In this document: piece by piece, positions 1 through 5,406 of the stretch | Numbering within the stretch: the first letter of the stretch is position 1 | Layout: each line of letters opens with the position of its first letter | The notes under the pieces: generated by a model | What the model saw: the letters and a program-made list of their open reading frames with translations, nothing else | Databases searched by the model: none | Told to the model about the DNA's origin: nothing | Translations under genes and position numbers: made by a program | Source of the DNA: an uncultured Bacteroidota bacterium | GTDB lineage: Bacteria > Bacteroidota > Bacteroidia > Flavobacteriales > Flavobacteriaceae | Direction: 5' to 3' | Assembly: GCA_937136025.1 (NCBI GenBank) | Contig: CAKZOC010000253.1 | Coordinates: forward strand, 1-64,000 | Length of the DNA stretch: 64,000 bases

Positions 1-2184
1 ATACCCCACCCCTTCAACCGTAGTTATACTTCCCGGGGCACTGAAATCATCATCAAATGTGTAGAAATAGCCATTTGAACTGAATTTCGCATCAAAGATA
101 TTGTTCACAAGCAGGGTCAGGGCCACATCCGAAAACCAGCCAAAGGGTTTCATACGGTACCGGAGATTGAAATCGGTCTGGGTGTAGGCCTCGAGTTTTG
201 ATTTTTCGGCCTCAATATTGCTCATATACTGTTCTCCAACAAACTTGGTGAGCAGGGCAAACTGCAAGTCTTCAGACAGGTTATACACCAATCGGCTCCC
301 CAGAACCACTTCCGGAGAAAAGGCGATCCGGGTGTTTCCCAAATTGGTCAGCTCCCCATCTCTCCTGAAAAAGAAATCGATATTGCGATTCGTACTCAGG
401 GCCAGGTTGGGTTGCCATTGAAATGCGCGACCGAGTGGCATGTCCACATCGATTTCCAGACCCAGCCTGTAACTATCTCCAATATTGGACCGGATAGGAG
501 CTCCAACATCGTTGAGCTCCCCGGTGAGTACCAGCTGATCCTTATAGCGCATGTAATACACGTTGGCGTTTATACTGGTGCCTTGCTTCAGGTACCGCCA
601 CCCCAATTCGAAGTCCTGCAGGCGTTCCGGTTTGGGATTCCCATTTTCATAGTCATTCCTGTTAGGCTCCCGGTTTGCCACGGCATAGGAAAGATAGAGG
701 TTTTGAGAAGGGTTAATCCGATACGTAATCCCGGATTTTGGGTTAAAAAACCGGAAGCGATCATCCACCAGTCCTGTTTGTTCCCCGTTTGCCTGGTAGC
801 GAACACCTCTGTACTGAAGATCGAGAAAGAATTGCCACTTGTCCCCTAAACGGTAATTGGCTTTGGCAAATATATTGAGATCGTCTTTTTGTGAATCGTC
901 CTCATAATACCGATCCCGGGGCTCGAGATTCCCGGCATACCTGGCCCAGATCACCTCTCCGAAATGATCCCCCCTGTAGGTATTCCACCCTCCTCCGAGG
1001 AGCAACTCCAGAGGCCCTTTTCTGTAGGTACCCGAAAAAACAGTCCCATAGAAATCATTGTCCAGCCAACGCCGGCGTGCATAATCCATAGTACTGATTT
1101 CCTCTCCGTCGACTACCGTATTTGCCAGACCGAGAAAACTCAATTGGGCATCCGGGGCAAATAGGATATTGCTGTAATACCACTCGTCTACGTATTCCTC
1201 AAAAAATCCACGCCCCCGGGTATAGTGGAGGGCGATATTGGTTTGAAAAGCCTCTGTCCATTCCTGGTTCCAGTGCAATTGGAAGTGGTCCTGTTTGTAG
1301 TCGTCCACCTGATTGTCGTAAAAGCCCTCGAAATTTCCATCCCGGTCAAACTGAATACCGGCGATATTATACCTGCGGTTGGTCTCCAGACTGTTGTCGA
1401 CCCCGATAGAACCCAGTACGTCGGGATCAAAACCATACCAGGACTGGTAGGTCACTTCGTGACCCCCAAACATAAGGGCCTTCACAAGGGTTTTTTCCTT
1501 TACAAAAGCACCCTGAAGAAAGTAGGAATCCAAATCCGAAGCGGCGCGGTCAATATACCCGTCAGAGGCAATTCGGGAGAGTCGGCCCGAGAATTCGAAT
1601 TGATCACCCAATAAACCTGTACTGAATTTCGCGGTGGCCCGGTGCGTATTAAAACTGCCTGCCGAAACCGTAAGCTCAGCGTAGGCCTCGGATGAGACCA
1701 CGTCCGTGAGAATATTCAGGCTGGCCCCAAAGGCTCCTGCCCCATTGGTAGAGGTTCCCACACCTCGTTGAAGTTGCAGACTTTCCGTAGAAGAGGCGAA
1801 GTCGGGCATATTGACCCAGAAAGTCCCCTGTGATTCCGCATCGTTATAGGGAATTCCGTTTATAGTGACATTTACCCGGGTGGCATCACTACCCCGCACC
1901 CGTATTCCGGTGTATCCAATCCCGGCACCTGCATCTGAGGTAGTGACTACGGAAGGAAGGTAGTTCATTAGGATCGGAATGTCCTGTCCAAGATTGCGTT
2001 TTGCAATGCGGTCTTTATTCAGGTTGGAAAAGGTGACCGGGGCCTCACGGGTTACCCGAACAGCAGAGACGAGAACCTCATCCAGTGCAATTTGTTCCGC
2101 TTCGGTGGTATCAATCGGTGTTTGCTGGGCTAGTGTTGACAAAGGGATCGATAAAAACAATCCCCATAAAACCATCTTTTTCAT
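1..2184 (-). CDS. TonB-dependent outer membrane receptor, putative thiamine/precursor uptake (C-terminus runs off the window edge)
   Basis: Manual minus-strand translation from ATG at 2184: MKKMVLWGLFLSIPLSTLAQQTPIDTTEAEQIALDEVLVSAVRVTREAPVTFSNLNKDRI... then plug motif YTGIRVRGSDATRVNVTINGIPYND. Missing from the ORF track because it is open at the edge. Preceded by a TPP riboswitch. Confidence 0.9.
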   Translation of the reverse strand, partial: MKKMVLWGLFLSIPLSTLAQQTPIDTTEAEQIALDEVLVSAVRVTREAPVTFSNLNKDRIAKRNLGQDIPILMNYLPSVVTTSDAGAGIGYTGIRVRGSDATRVNVTINGIPYNDAESQGTFWVNMPDFASSTESLQLQRGVGTSTNGAGAFGASLNILTDVVSSEAYAELTVSAGSFNTHRATAKFSTGLLGDQFEFSGRLSRIASDGYIDRAASDLDSYFLQGAFVKEKTLVKALMFGGHEVTYQSWYGFDPDVLGSIGVDNSLETNRRYNIAGIQFDRDGNFEGFYDNQVDDYKQDHFQLHWNQEWTEAFQTNIALHYTRGRGFFEEYVDEWYYSNILFAPDAQLSFLGLANTVVDGEEISTMDYARRRWLDNDFYGTVFSGTYRKGPLELLLGGGWNTYRGDHFGEVIWARYAGNLEPRDRYYEDDSQKDDLNIFAKANYRLGDKWQFFLDLQYRGVRYQANGEQTGLVDDRFRFFNPKSGITYRINPSQNLYLSYAVANREPNRNDYENGNPKPERLQDFELGWRYLKQGTSINANVYYMRYKDQLVLTGELNDVGAPIRSNIGDSYRLGLEIDVDMPLGRAFQWQPNLALSTNRNIDFFFRRDGELTNLGNTRIAFSPEVVLGSRLVYNLSEDLQFALLTKFVGEQYMSNIEAEKSKLEAYTQTDFNLRYRMKPFGWFSDVALTLLVNNIFDAKFSSNGYFYTFDDDFSAPGSITTVEGVGY

Positions 2185-2302
2185 TCGTATGCCGTTTACG
2201 AATAAAAGGGGCCATTATCCTGTGATGACTTGTTGTTCGTGGCAAAATGCCCACCCGGACGGAAAGAAGATAGTCTTCTAAATAGAGGACATACTCTCTC
2301 AG

Positions 2303-2398
2303 TGTTCCCTTGGCAGCATTACCTGCCCAGGTTCATCGGGTATACTCTCAGCCCGGTTTTTTGCGATTTACGCTCCTGAAAAACCAAAGCACCCCTTA
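2303..2398 (-). promoter_or_regulatory. TPP (thi-box) riboswitch aptamer
   Basis: Minus strand reads TAAGGGGTGCTTTGGTTTTTCAGGAGCGTAAATCGCAAAAAACCGGGCTGAGAGTATACCCGATGAACCTGGGCAGGTAATGCTGCCAAGGGAA. It contains the conserved GGGGTGC, GCTGAGA, ACCCGATGAACCTG and TAATGC..AAGGGAA blocks in order. Confidence 0.95.
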
Positions 2399-2408
2399 TG
2401 AGATGCCG

Positions 2409-2470: not shown

Positions 2471-4009
2471 TCAGGGTTGGTGGGCCGCCTTGAGCAGGTC
2501 ATTTACCGTTTTAACCGGGTTGAAAGTACTCCCCGGAACCTCTACAAAAACCGTATTCCAATACGCCATGCCCCCATTCCAGAGACCGGGAAGCTCTAAA
2601 GCCTTTAATTCCCTGCCTTCAAAGGTTTTTGAAGCGATAAAGCCCTGTTTGGAATTCACATATTGCAGCAAGTCTAATTTCTTACCAAAAGCATCGCGAA
2701 CCCCGCAGACTAAATCTACCGGATTAAAGTGCGTCGCCTTTTCAAAAATCAGGAGTTGGGCTTCGTCTTCCAAATCCACCTGAGCCGACTCGACGATTTG
2801 CAGGGATTCATTTCCCATGGCATCTGTAATCCAGAACGGACCTCCCCCGGGGTCTCCTTCGTTTCGGACCATTCCGCAAACCCGTATAGGGCGAGACAGC
2901 TTATCGATGAGTACGGCCATCTGTTCTTCGAGGCTGTAGCCGGGAAAGGCATCGGGAAAACGCACATTCAATCCTGTCTCCAGAAAGGCGTGGACGCGTT
3001 TTAACAAATCGTGGTCTACTGTTCCATCGACCAGCATCCTGTGAAAACTGAACGCCTTGGACTGGACTTTGAGCAGATACCCGGCCAGCACCTCCTTCCA
3101 GGCCACAATTTCTTCTAAAGACCGGTCCGGAACTACATTGTCAATATTTTTAATAAACAGCAGATCTGCCTCCTGTTCGTTGAGGTTTTCCAAAAGGGCG
3201 CCATGTCCGCCGGGCCGGAAAAGCAATTGTCCGTTTTCCTCGCGGAACGGCTCATTCTCCGGAGTAACTGCCAGGGTATCTGTGGACTCCTTTTGATAGG
3301 AATAGGTGATTTCAAAATCACAACCGGCAGCAGCGGCTATCCTGCCCGCAAATGATTTCTCTTCCGCCTGGAACAAGTCCCAGTGTTGAGGGGAAATAGT
3401 AAAATGAAGACGAGAAACAGAGCCCGATCGCCCATAGGCAGCCCCTTCCTTTAAATGTTCTACAAAAGGAGTCGCCGTTCGATTTCCGTACCGGTGAAAG
3501 GGCAAAAGGCCTTTGGGATAGAACCCGTAATTCTTTCCTCTTTCGGTGAGCATTTCAGAGACGAAAGCATATAACATCTCTCCCTGAGTTTGAGGTGTTG
3601 CCGACAGAGATCCGGAGATTTCATCGTAAAACGGAAACCGTTGCAGGCCTTCATAAAAGGTTTTAATCCCCTTGTACTGCGGAAGGTTTACATATTCGTC
3701 AAGCCGTGTCACCTTGGGATTAAACCCTTGTAAAAACCCGAATAAATCTTTAAACATTCGGGAAGCCGCCCCGGAAGCCGGGATAAATTTAAGAGCTCTG
3801 AGATTGCGACTGTGCTCCTGATAATGTTTGCGGAGCTGCTCTTGTTGCTCAGAGGAAAGGCGGATAATCCCATCCCCAACAACTGCCGCTTTGACCAGCG
3901 CAACATAAGGTATTCCCTCCTGAAAGGTTTGAATTTGCTGCGTGGCTTTTTCGGGACTAATCCCTTTTTTAGACAGGAGAAGTTTGTCTTCCTCTGAAAA
4001 TGGATTCAT
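2471..4009 (-). CDS. DUF4301 family protein
   Basis: 512 aa ORF, MNPFSEEDKLLLSKKGISPEKATQQIQTFQEGIPYVALVKAAVVGDGI...; start overlaps the upstream kinase stop (ATGA type). Confidence 0.8.
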   Translation of the reverse strand: MNPFSEEDKLLLSKKGISPEKATQQIQTFQEGIPYVALVKAAVVGDGIIRLSSEQQEQLRKHYQEHSRNLRALKFIPASGAASRMFKDLFGFLQGFNPKVTRLDEYVNLPQYKGIKTFYEGLQRFPFYDEISGSLSATPQTQGEMLYAFVSEMLTERGKNYGFYPKGLLPFHRYGNRTATPFVEHLKEGAAYGRSGSVSRLHFTISPQHWDLFQAEEKSFAGRIAAAAGCDFEITYSYQKESTDTLAVTPENEPFREENGQLLFRPGGHGALLENLNEQEADLLFIKNIDNVVPDRSLEEIVAWKEVLAGYLLKVQSKAFSFHRMLVDGTVDHDLLKRVHAFLETGLNVRFPDAFPGYSLEEQMAVLIDKLSRPIRVCGMVRNEGDPGGGPFWITDAMGNESLQIVESAQVDLEDEAQLLIFEKATHFNPVDLVCGVRDAFGKKLDLLQYVNSKQGFIASKTFEGRELKALELPGLWNGGMAYWNTVFVEVPGSTFNPVKTVNDLLKAAHQP

Positions 4010-4569
4010 GGAATCAAGAGTTTATCGATGTGGTAAATGGCTTCCTTAAGCCGTTTTTCAGGGGATCCGCTCAATATAATAAAACTGCGGTTATAAAGCT
4101 CCAGAGCGGATCTGAATCGTGCAAACATTTCTTCCCGCTCTTCAGGTTTATCGCGAAGATCATCCGGAACCCAGGGCACGTCAATACCGGTTAGTAAATA
4201 CAGATCGTAGGTGTTCTGTAAGGCATATTTTTCAATATCCGGATCGCAGTAACCGTCGTAATACGCCTCAGAGTAGACTTTAGTGACCAAAAGGTCCGTA
4301 TCGCAAATCAACAAACGGTTGGCCGAGCGGGTCAAGGTATTTTCCCGGGCGATCTGGCCTGCACCAATTGGAGGAAGATCTTCTGGTTGGCATGTCTCGC
4401 GGGTGCGATCCCATTTTTCCTGTAGGTACTCCCGGGCGTATTCCGGAACCCACTCGGTTTGGTAATAGGAGGCCAGGGCTATGGCCAGGGTTGTTTTCCC
4501 TGTAGATTCAGGTCCAAAAACCACCACTTTCAGGATGTCCGAAGGCTCTTGTCTAAACGTTTTTTCCAT
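4006..4569 (-). CDS. NadR-like P-loop ATPase/kinase
   Basis: Walker A FGPESTGKTT, VPEYAREY, ICDTD; NadR ribosylnicotinamide-kinase-like fold. Start reassigned from 4719 to ATG at 4569 (MEKTFRQEPSD). Confidence 0.8.
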   Translation of the reverse strand: MEKTFRQEPSDILKVVVFGPESTGKTTLAIALASYYQTEWVPEYAREYLQEKWDRTRETCQPEDLPPIGAGQIARENTLTRSANRLLICDTDLLVTKVYSEAYYDGYCDPDIEKYALQNTYDLYLLTGIDVPWVPDDLRDKPEEREEMFARFRSALELYNRSFIILSGSPEKRLKEAIYHIDKLLIP

Positions 4570-5168
4570 TCCCGATATCCTTGGATTGCCAAGATAGTAA
4601 ATATCAGATACTGCAGGGACAGCATTCCCCAGCCCCGGTACGCATAAAGGGGTATGGTGATGAGATCTGCCAAAATCCAGAGGGTCCAGTTTTCCAATTT
4701 TTTGGTTGCCATATACCACATGGCGGTAAAGAATATTCCTGAGGTAAGTATATCCACATAATTGGAGGGTCCCATCGGGACATCAAAGACCTTGTAAATG
4801 ATATAATTTAATCCTGAGGCGGCCACAAACAGTAGAAATCCGATAGCCTTTTCGGTATTGTTGGTTCTGGAAATATGCACTACCGAAGCGCCTTCTTTCT
4901 GCCGGGCCCAGTTCCACCATCCATAAATACTCATAAGCGAGTAATACAGATTGATCATCATATCTCCGAGAAGCCTGTCCTTAAAGAAAAGATACATAGT
5001 GATCACCGTTGCGATCAACCCGGTGGGGTACACCAGGATACTTTCGCGTTTGGCCAGGACCACGCTGGCAATCCCAAATACAAAAGCGAACACTTCAAGC
5101 AGGATAAAAAATACGGAACGATCCCGATACGGATCCAGGAAAAAATCAAAAATGGGGCTCATAGGCAC
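4530..5168 (-). CDS. PnuC-family transporter (PnuT-like candidate)
   Basis: 212 aa multi-helix protein with YGWWNWARQK and WxxAD..IPLYAYRG segments typical of PnuC family; genomic context suggests thiamine rather than nicotinamide riboside. Confidence 0.8.
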   Translation of the reverse strand: MPMSPIFDFFLDPYRDRSVFFILLEVFAFVFGIASVVLAKRESILVYPTGLIATVITMYLFFKDRLLGDMMINLYYSLMSIYGWWNWARQKEGASVVHISRTNNTEKAIGFLLFVAASGLNYIIYKVFDVPMGPSNYVDILTSGIFFTAMWYMATKKLENWTLWILADLITIPLYAYRGWGMLSLQYLIFTILAIQGYREWKKRLDKSLRTS

Positions 5169-5406
5169 TTCGGTCTGTTTTGACCATTTTCAGGTAAAAA
5201 ACCCCCTGTTCAACTCCCTCAAGACTGGTGTAAATTTCCTTATTCAGCACTTCCATGACCCGCGCGTAATCGCCATAGATTTGTGTACTCATCGGATTTT
5301 CAAGCACGGTAAGGCCGGAATCCCTCAGCGCCTTTATAAAACGGATAATCTGGGGTTCATATCCGTCCTGCAGTGGGCTGAAGGTTAATTCGACTGAAAT
5401 TTCCAT
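5146..5406 (-). CDS. MTH1187/YkoF-like thiamine-binding family small protein
   Basis: 86 aa, MEISVELTFSPLQDGYEPQIIRFIKALRDSGLTVLENPMSTQIYGDYARVMEVLNKEIY; resembles the MTH1187/YkoF superfamily pattern. Confidence 0.7.
   Translation of the reverse strand: MEISVELTFSPLQDGYEPQIIRFIKALRDSGLTVLENPMSTQIYGDYARVMEVLNKEIYTSLEGVEQGVFYLKMVKTDRSAYEPHF

Follow-up and report, generated by a model that had tools for sequence, protein, structure and literature searches.

A four-gene unit beside a TPP riboswitch and a TonB-dependent receptor

The DNA analysed here is a stretch of 64,000 nucleotides from an uncultured member of the Flavobacteriaceae (the window). Its minus strand carries, in order of transcription, genes for a YkoF-like protein, a PnuC-family transporter, a NadR-like kinase and DUF4301, followed by a TPP riboswitch and a TonB receptor:

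5146..5406 (-), small YkoF/MTH1187-like protein of the Thiamine_BP family (PF01910), 86 aa
4530..5168 (-), PnuT-type transporter of the PnuC family (PF04973), 212 aa; predicted inner-membrane thiamine permease
4006..4569 (-), stand-alone NadR-like P-loop kinase (AAA_28/NadR kinase homology), 187 aa; predicted thiamine kinase
2471..4009 (-), DUF4301 (PF14134), 512 aa; predicted nucleotidyltransferase of the UDPGP superfamily
2287..2406 (-), TPP riboswitch (RF00059, 35.3 bits) before the receptor
2184..1 (-), TonB-dependent receptor (TonB_dep_Rec_b-barrel and Plug), predicted outer-membrane thiamine receptor; runs off the window

All four open reading frames of the unit lie where the original prediction had placed them, with overlaps of precisely the lengths that it gave (23, 40 and 4 nt); the riboswitch–receptor unit that it described downstream of DUF4301 is likewise present. 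The YkoF-like protein passes the Pfam gathering score of Thiamine_BP (26.2 bits, cut-off 24.9). Upstream of the unit lie a phosphopantetheinyl transferase (PPTase) gene and a divergent adenosylhomocysteinase (AHCY) gene. In Flavobacteriaceae, the PnuT gene adjoins the kinase gene in 80 of 80 named loci and DUF4301 in all 31 of the loci examined that carry it, so the association of these genes is above chance; the YkoF-like gene is found in 65 of the 80. AHCY and PPTase are equally conserved at the locus, however, and synteny alone is therefore weak evidence for function. Many relatives have a further gene of ∼240 aa between the PPTase gene and the YkoF/PnuT genes (L092:9402-10124, L094:6982-7713 and L095:5318-6049), which is absent from the window and by eye looks like a geranylgeranylglyceryl phosphate synthase gene.

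The RF00059 match is full-length (E = 2.3e-4) but does not reach the gathering score of 54.3. At the gathering threshold a search of the window against Rfam returned nothing, and the TPP box emerged in a permissive search alone, together with RMST_1 and snoRNA matches that we attribute to chance. Annotation pipelines that apply the Rfam gathering threshold would miss it. Judging by its sequence, which carries the CUGAGA, ACCC, GAACCUG and UAAUGC core motifs, the match is a genuine TPP riboswitch, and no other TPP match turned up anywhere in the genome. It lies between DUF4301 and the receptor gene that follows, and so is placed to control the receptor; the four-gene unit itself showed no TPP box ahead of it. 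TPP boxes in comparable positions in relatives exceed the gathering score. Such boxes, accompanied by a receptor gene, occur near the kinase or PnuT gene in four families (f1, which is the Flavobacteriaceae, f5, f8 and f9; loci L095, L156, L157, L168, L169, L170, L171 and L172), and no DUF4301 gene was found near them at any of these loci. In families f4 and f3, neither a pattern scan of the loci nor a cmscan run on nine of them revealed a TPP box.

The genome lacks a known enzyme for the thiamine-to-TMP step

The genome that contains the window is 99.97% complete. Profile searches, on which all our absence calls for ThiE, ThiC and TPK rest, found ThiL but neither TPK nor ThiC, and no ThiE/TenI match over the cut-off. 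ThiL needs TMP, and no known TMP-making enzyme was found in the genome; a known step from thiamine to TMP is therefore missing. The same holds for 15 Flavobacteriaceae genomes including this one, which keep ThiL while TPK, ThiE and ThiC are all absent, and PnuT and an intact kinase are present in 15 of 15. We predict that the NadR-like kinase fills the gap left by TPK and ThiE and feeds ThiL.

A NadR-like kinase that is not a NadR

The kinase matches AAA_28 (E = 1e-42) and the NadR model TIGR01526 (E = 2e-31), the latter far under that model's cut-off; it does not belong to the TPK family (PF04263, TPK_catalytic). Its closest named relative, from Robiginitalea aurantiaca, is 81% identical, which suggests that the window probably comes from Robiginitalea or a near relation of that genus. 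The predicted fold is closest to the ribosylnicotinamide kinase (RNK) domain of NadR (1LW7, 8X7F and 6GYE; ∼24% identity in the structural match), and the Walker A, Walker B and lid residues are retained. With 187 aa and its P-loop at residues 19-26, the protein has no NMN adenylyltransferase domain, whereas the P-loop of genuine NadR proteins in relatives lies at residue 118-177. The nearest characterised relatives phosphorylate nicotinamide riboside (NR), and the context of the window kinase suggests a shift of substrate from NR to thiamine.

A second AAA_28 kinase-like protein of the same genome (C183; L098:4296-4976), encoded beside a recQ-like gene and conserved in relatives, is a different paralogue.

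A probable replacement of TPK by the kinase in Bacteroidota

Among 56 genomes of the class outside the Flavobacteriaceae, the kinase was found in 39 of the 41 that lack TPK and in one of the 15 that bear it (in this count, the kinase-search match of genome G191 is a bifunctional NadR). The exclusion gives p = 3e-10 in a Fisher test that ignores kinship, which inflates such raw values. On a ThiL tree, five independent TPK contrasts were available, of which three to four ran in the opposite direction and none in the same (median p = 0.125); with about five contrasts, a tree-aware sign test is unable to reach 0.05. Exceptions are G374, which has both enzymes, and G354 and G394, which have neither.

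The position of the genes follows the same pattern. The kinase gene directly follows PnuT in most kinase-bearing loci outside the Flavobacteriaceae and in most TPK-lacking families, and it is TPK that adjoins PnuT instead in L187, L189, L192 and L193. Within the Flavobacteriaceae, genus g2 forms a further exception, with both enzymes in 19 of its 23 genomes. Loss or decay of the kinase in this family is confined to genomes that bear TPK (4/23 versus 0/19): the kinase domain of G338 is degenerate, and the kinase is gone in G084 and G155. The best reading of these distributions is that kinase and TPK are mutually exclusive, the kinase being a predicted non-orthologous replacement.

Two of the eroded loci deserve description. 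The DUF4301 protein of G338 (L057:7674-9536) bears an N-terminal remnant of a kinase domain without a P-loop, and in G291 (L097:8534-10053) the kinase is lost and DUF4301 is split into two frames; both genomes have TPK.

The transporter groups with PnuT and not with nicotinamide riboside transporters

The transporter is the sole PnuC-family protein encoded in its genome and matches PF04973 with E = 3e-51. PnuC models score above their cut-off, and this, with the homology of the kinase to the RNK domain of NadR, would fit a role in NR salvage. Such a pathway could be completed if DUF4301 were a non-homologous NMN adenylyltransferase that makes NAD, an arrangement of kinase and nucleotidyltransferase that recalls bifunctional NadR.

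The tree of the transporters points elsewhere. The window protein falls in a 39-row clade with the TPK-adjacent PnuT of family f24 (SH-aLRT 97), and all six NadR-linked PnuC proteins fall outside this clade; the PnuC-family proteins encoded beside the kinase in f3 and f9 are nearer to NR-type PnuC. From its sequence, the window transporter is predicted to be a PnuT-type thiamine permease. Thiamine transport by PnuT and a pnuT-tnr3 operon have been published (PMC5613172).

Several relatives hold separate NR salvage genes, PnuC together with bifunctional NadR, at L099:7941-11555 (with a TonB receptor), L100:6947-8510 and L101:7950-9510. These relatives retain the window-type locus too, which argues against NR as its substrate, as do the grouping of the transporter with TPK-linked PnuT, the tracking of TPK absence by the kinase, the TPP boxes and receptors beside the kinase in four families, and the presence of the kinase without DUF4301 in most families. 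On the strength of the relatives' true NR operons and the PnuT tree we set NR salvage aside as the primary role of the locus, and we consider the scheme with DUF4301 as an NAD-making enzyme distinctly unlikely. The supposition that transporter and kinase act only on nicotinamide riboside was thus not borne out.

Fusions of the kinase to sugar-type enzymes

Many Flavobacteriaceae, namely most of genus g2 plus two other genomes, encode DUF4301 with the kinase joined to its N-terminus. A different fusion is found in family f9, where L170:7071-8516(-) encodes a 481-aa protein that joins the kinase to an aldose-1-epimerase domain, before a TPP box and receptor; at the corresponding place a relative encodes the epimerase separately (L172:8559-9449). 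Two lineages have thus joined the kinase to a sugar-type enzyme.

It could be argued from these fusions, to a UDPGP-type protein in one lineage and to the epimerase of L170 in the other, that the substrate of the kinase is a sugar or nucleoside, in which case the locus would serve to activate sugars and its position beside a thiamine receptor would be coincidental. This we regard as very improbable, as it leaves unexplained both the co-occurrence of the kinase with PnuT and TPP boxes and its mutual exclusion with TPK.

DUF4301 resembles UDP-sugar pyrophosphorylases

DUF4301 of the window matches PF14134 with E = 2.6e-202. Its structure was predicted with AlphaFold (AF2; pLDDT 92.8), and the top 25 PDB matches of the model are all UDP-Glc or UDP-GlcNAc pyrophosphorylases (probability 1.00, E from 2e-11 to 1e-6). 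The model shares the GT-A-like fold of the UDPGP family (UTP-glucose-1-phosphate uridylyltransferase and UDP-GlcNAc pyrophosphorylase). Through the GHG...NIDN region, a profile of 40 DUF4301 members matches the UDP-GlcNAc pyrophosphorylase 3oc9 (E = 0.01); weaker matches (E = 0.7-1), at the PVKTxxDLL end, are to the UGPases 7ppr and 2i5k. UDPGP-like motifs are present: a Gly-rich loop (PASGAASRM), PK, GHG, NIDN and PVKTxxDLL. DUF4301 differs from the UDPGP family in an insertion of ∼80 residues between the Gly loop and PK, in its low identity (10-16%) and in scores under the Pfam cut-off. UDPGP (PF01704) is matched by 17 of the 40 members at E ≤ 1 (best 9e-5), and the window protein scores 17.9 bits where the gathering score is 22.

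Residues G80, R84, K166, G268-G270, D290 and K500 are invariant in the 40 members and partly aligned with 3oc9 and 7ppr. The invariant Gly loop, PK Lys, NxDN Asp and PVK Lys suggest that DUF4301 is probably an active enzyme; from motif comparison and general knowledge of the UDPGP family, we take these residues to be catalytic. By predicted fold and motifs DUF4301 is a divergent UDPGP-type nucleotidyltransferase, and it probably acts on a sugar phosphate. As to a replacement of GalU by DUF4301, canonical GalU passes the cut-off in only two of 56 genomes, irrespective of the presence of DUF4301. In 44 genomes no canonical UDPGP gene was found over the cut-off; a single weak match turned out to be a gene for DUF4301 itself. 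In the literature searched, one paper mentions DUF4301, in passing.

DUF4301 is linked to the locus in Flavobacteriaceae only

The original prediction placed DUF4301 in thiamine salvage, perhaps in the metabolism of thiamine phosphate or a precursor. If DUF4301 were an enzyme dedicated to thiamine salvage, such as one that transfers a nucleotidyl group to the product of the kinase, this would account for the 4-nt overlap with the kinase gene, for the kinase–DUF4301 fusions and for the occupation of the slot by DUF4301 in 68 of 80 named Flavobacteriaceae loci. In all 31 Flavobacteriaceae loci examined for it, DUF4301 follows PnuT or the kinase.

Outside this family the linkage vanishes. DUF4301 was found in 66 of 398 Bacteroidota genomes, and in 29 loci from ten other families (three of which end at contig edges) none of the locus genes lies within ∼8 kb of it (0/29); its recurrent neighbours there are lineage-specific ones only. 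Neither Fisher tests nor the ThiL tree revealed a correlation of DUF4301 with TPK or the kinase. Five Flavobacteriaceae genomes (G029, G088, G107, G299 and G315) keep PnuT and the kinase without DUF4301; a receptor gene lies just downstream in three of these five loci, and the upstream synteny is the same wherever the fetched stretch reaches. DUF4301 is also absent from nine further named loci that have enough downstream sequence. The active-site columns are identical between locus-linked and unlinked members, which argues for one shared, thiamine-independent substrate, and the same synteny keeps AHCY and PPTase, which are not thiamine genes. The neighbourhood survey, with its thiamine association in Flavobacteriaceae only, thus largely contradicts a thiamine role for DUF4301; the absence of any tracking with TPK or the kinase, the relatives' loci that are intact without it and its UDP-sugar pyrophosphorylase fold add to this.

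We therefore consider a dedicated role in the thiamine route unlikely. The best reading is that DUF4301 is linked to the locus in Flavobacteriaceae only, as an accessory or passenger gene dispensable for the route. Against this, the genomes in which it is fused to the kinase suggest that the two may be functionally connected. Were kinase and DUF4301 one enzyme system, thiamine would be phosphorylated and a nucleotide then moved onto TMP, yielding a nucleotidylated thiamine, for instance adenosine thiamine diphosphate, that would serve for storage or signalling; we rate this as most improbable.

A predicted thiamine salvage route and its relation to known systems

Taken together, the locus is likely to be a vitamin B1 salvage route in which a thiamine kinase replaces TPK and DUF4301 is not needed. 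From gene content, synteny, predicted folds and co-occurrence, we infer the substrate of the kinase and the direction of the route as follows. In a host cell predicted to be unable to make thiamine, the TonB receptor, under riboswitch control by TPP, would import thiamine across the outer membrane, and the PnuT-type facilitator would move it across the inner membrane; the small YkoF-like protein may bind it. The stand-alone NadR-like kinase, standing in for the TPK (Tnr3) that adjoins PnuT in other Bacteroidota, would convert thiamine to TMP and thereby trap it, and chromosomal ThiL would convert TMP to TPP. DUF4301, coupled or fused to the kinase in Flavobacteriaceae, would be unneeded. The proposal that receptor, transporter and trapping kinase form one thiamine route is thus upheld by the pathway gap, the replacement of TPK by the kinase, the PnuT tree and the TPP boxes that other families carry next to the kinase gene. 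The locus had also been put forward as a candidate novel system; the system was the right one, and its novelty appears to lie in the kinase, not in DUF4301.

If this is true, a large part of the Bacteroidota phosphorylates vitamin B1 with a family annotated only as AAA ATPase or NadR-like, and the gap in B1 metabolism of Flavobacteriaceae unable to make the vitamin is closed. An annotation rule would follow: a NadR-like kinase beside PnuT in a genome without TPK is a thiamine kinase. DUF4301 gains a fold and a reaction class, and its substrate becomes testable. No description of a NadR-like thiamine kinase was found in the literature searched.

The closest known system is PnuT-Tnr3-OMthi of Bacteroides (PMC5613172), which likewise has a TPP-riboswitch-linked TonB receptor and a PnuC-family PnuT, with a phosphorylating enzyme adjoining PnuT in both. 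Tnr3 takes thiamine to TPP in one step, whereas the NadR-like kinase and ThiL would do so in two; the window locus further differs in the added YkoF-like and DUF4301 genes and in having its TPP box before the receptor only. With the RNK domain of NadR the kinase shares fold and Walker motifs; unlike NadR, it is stand-alone, lacks the NMN adenylyltransferase domain, lies in another gene context and is exclusive with TPK. In its chemistry, the proposed route from thiamine through TMP to TPP would work like the two-step route of E. coli, in which the kinase ThiK makes TMP from thiamine and ThiL makes TPP from TMP. ThiK is a kinase of the aminoglycoside-phosphotransferase type, whereas the window kinase is P-loop NadR-like and not a member of the ThiK family.
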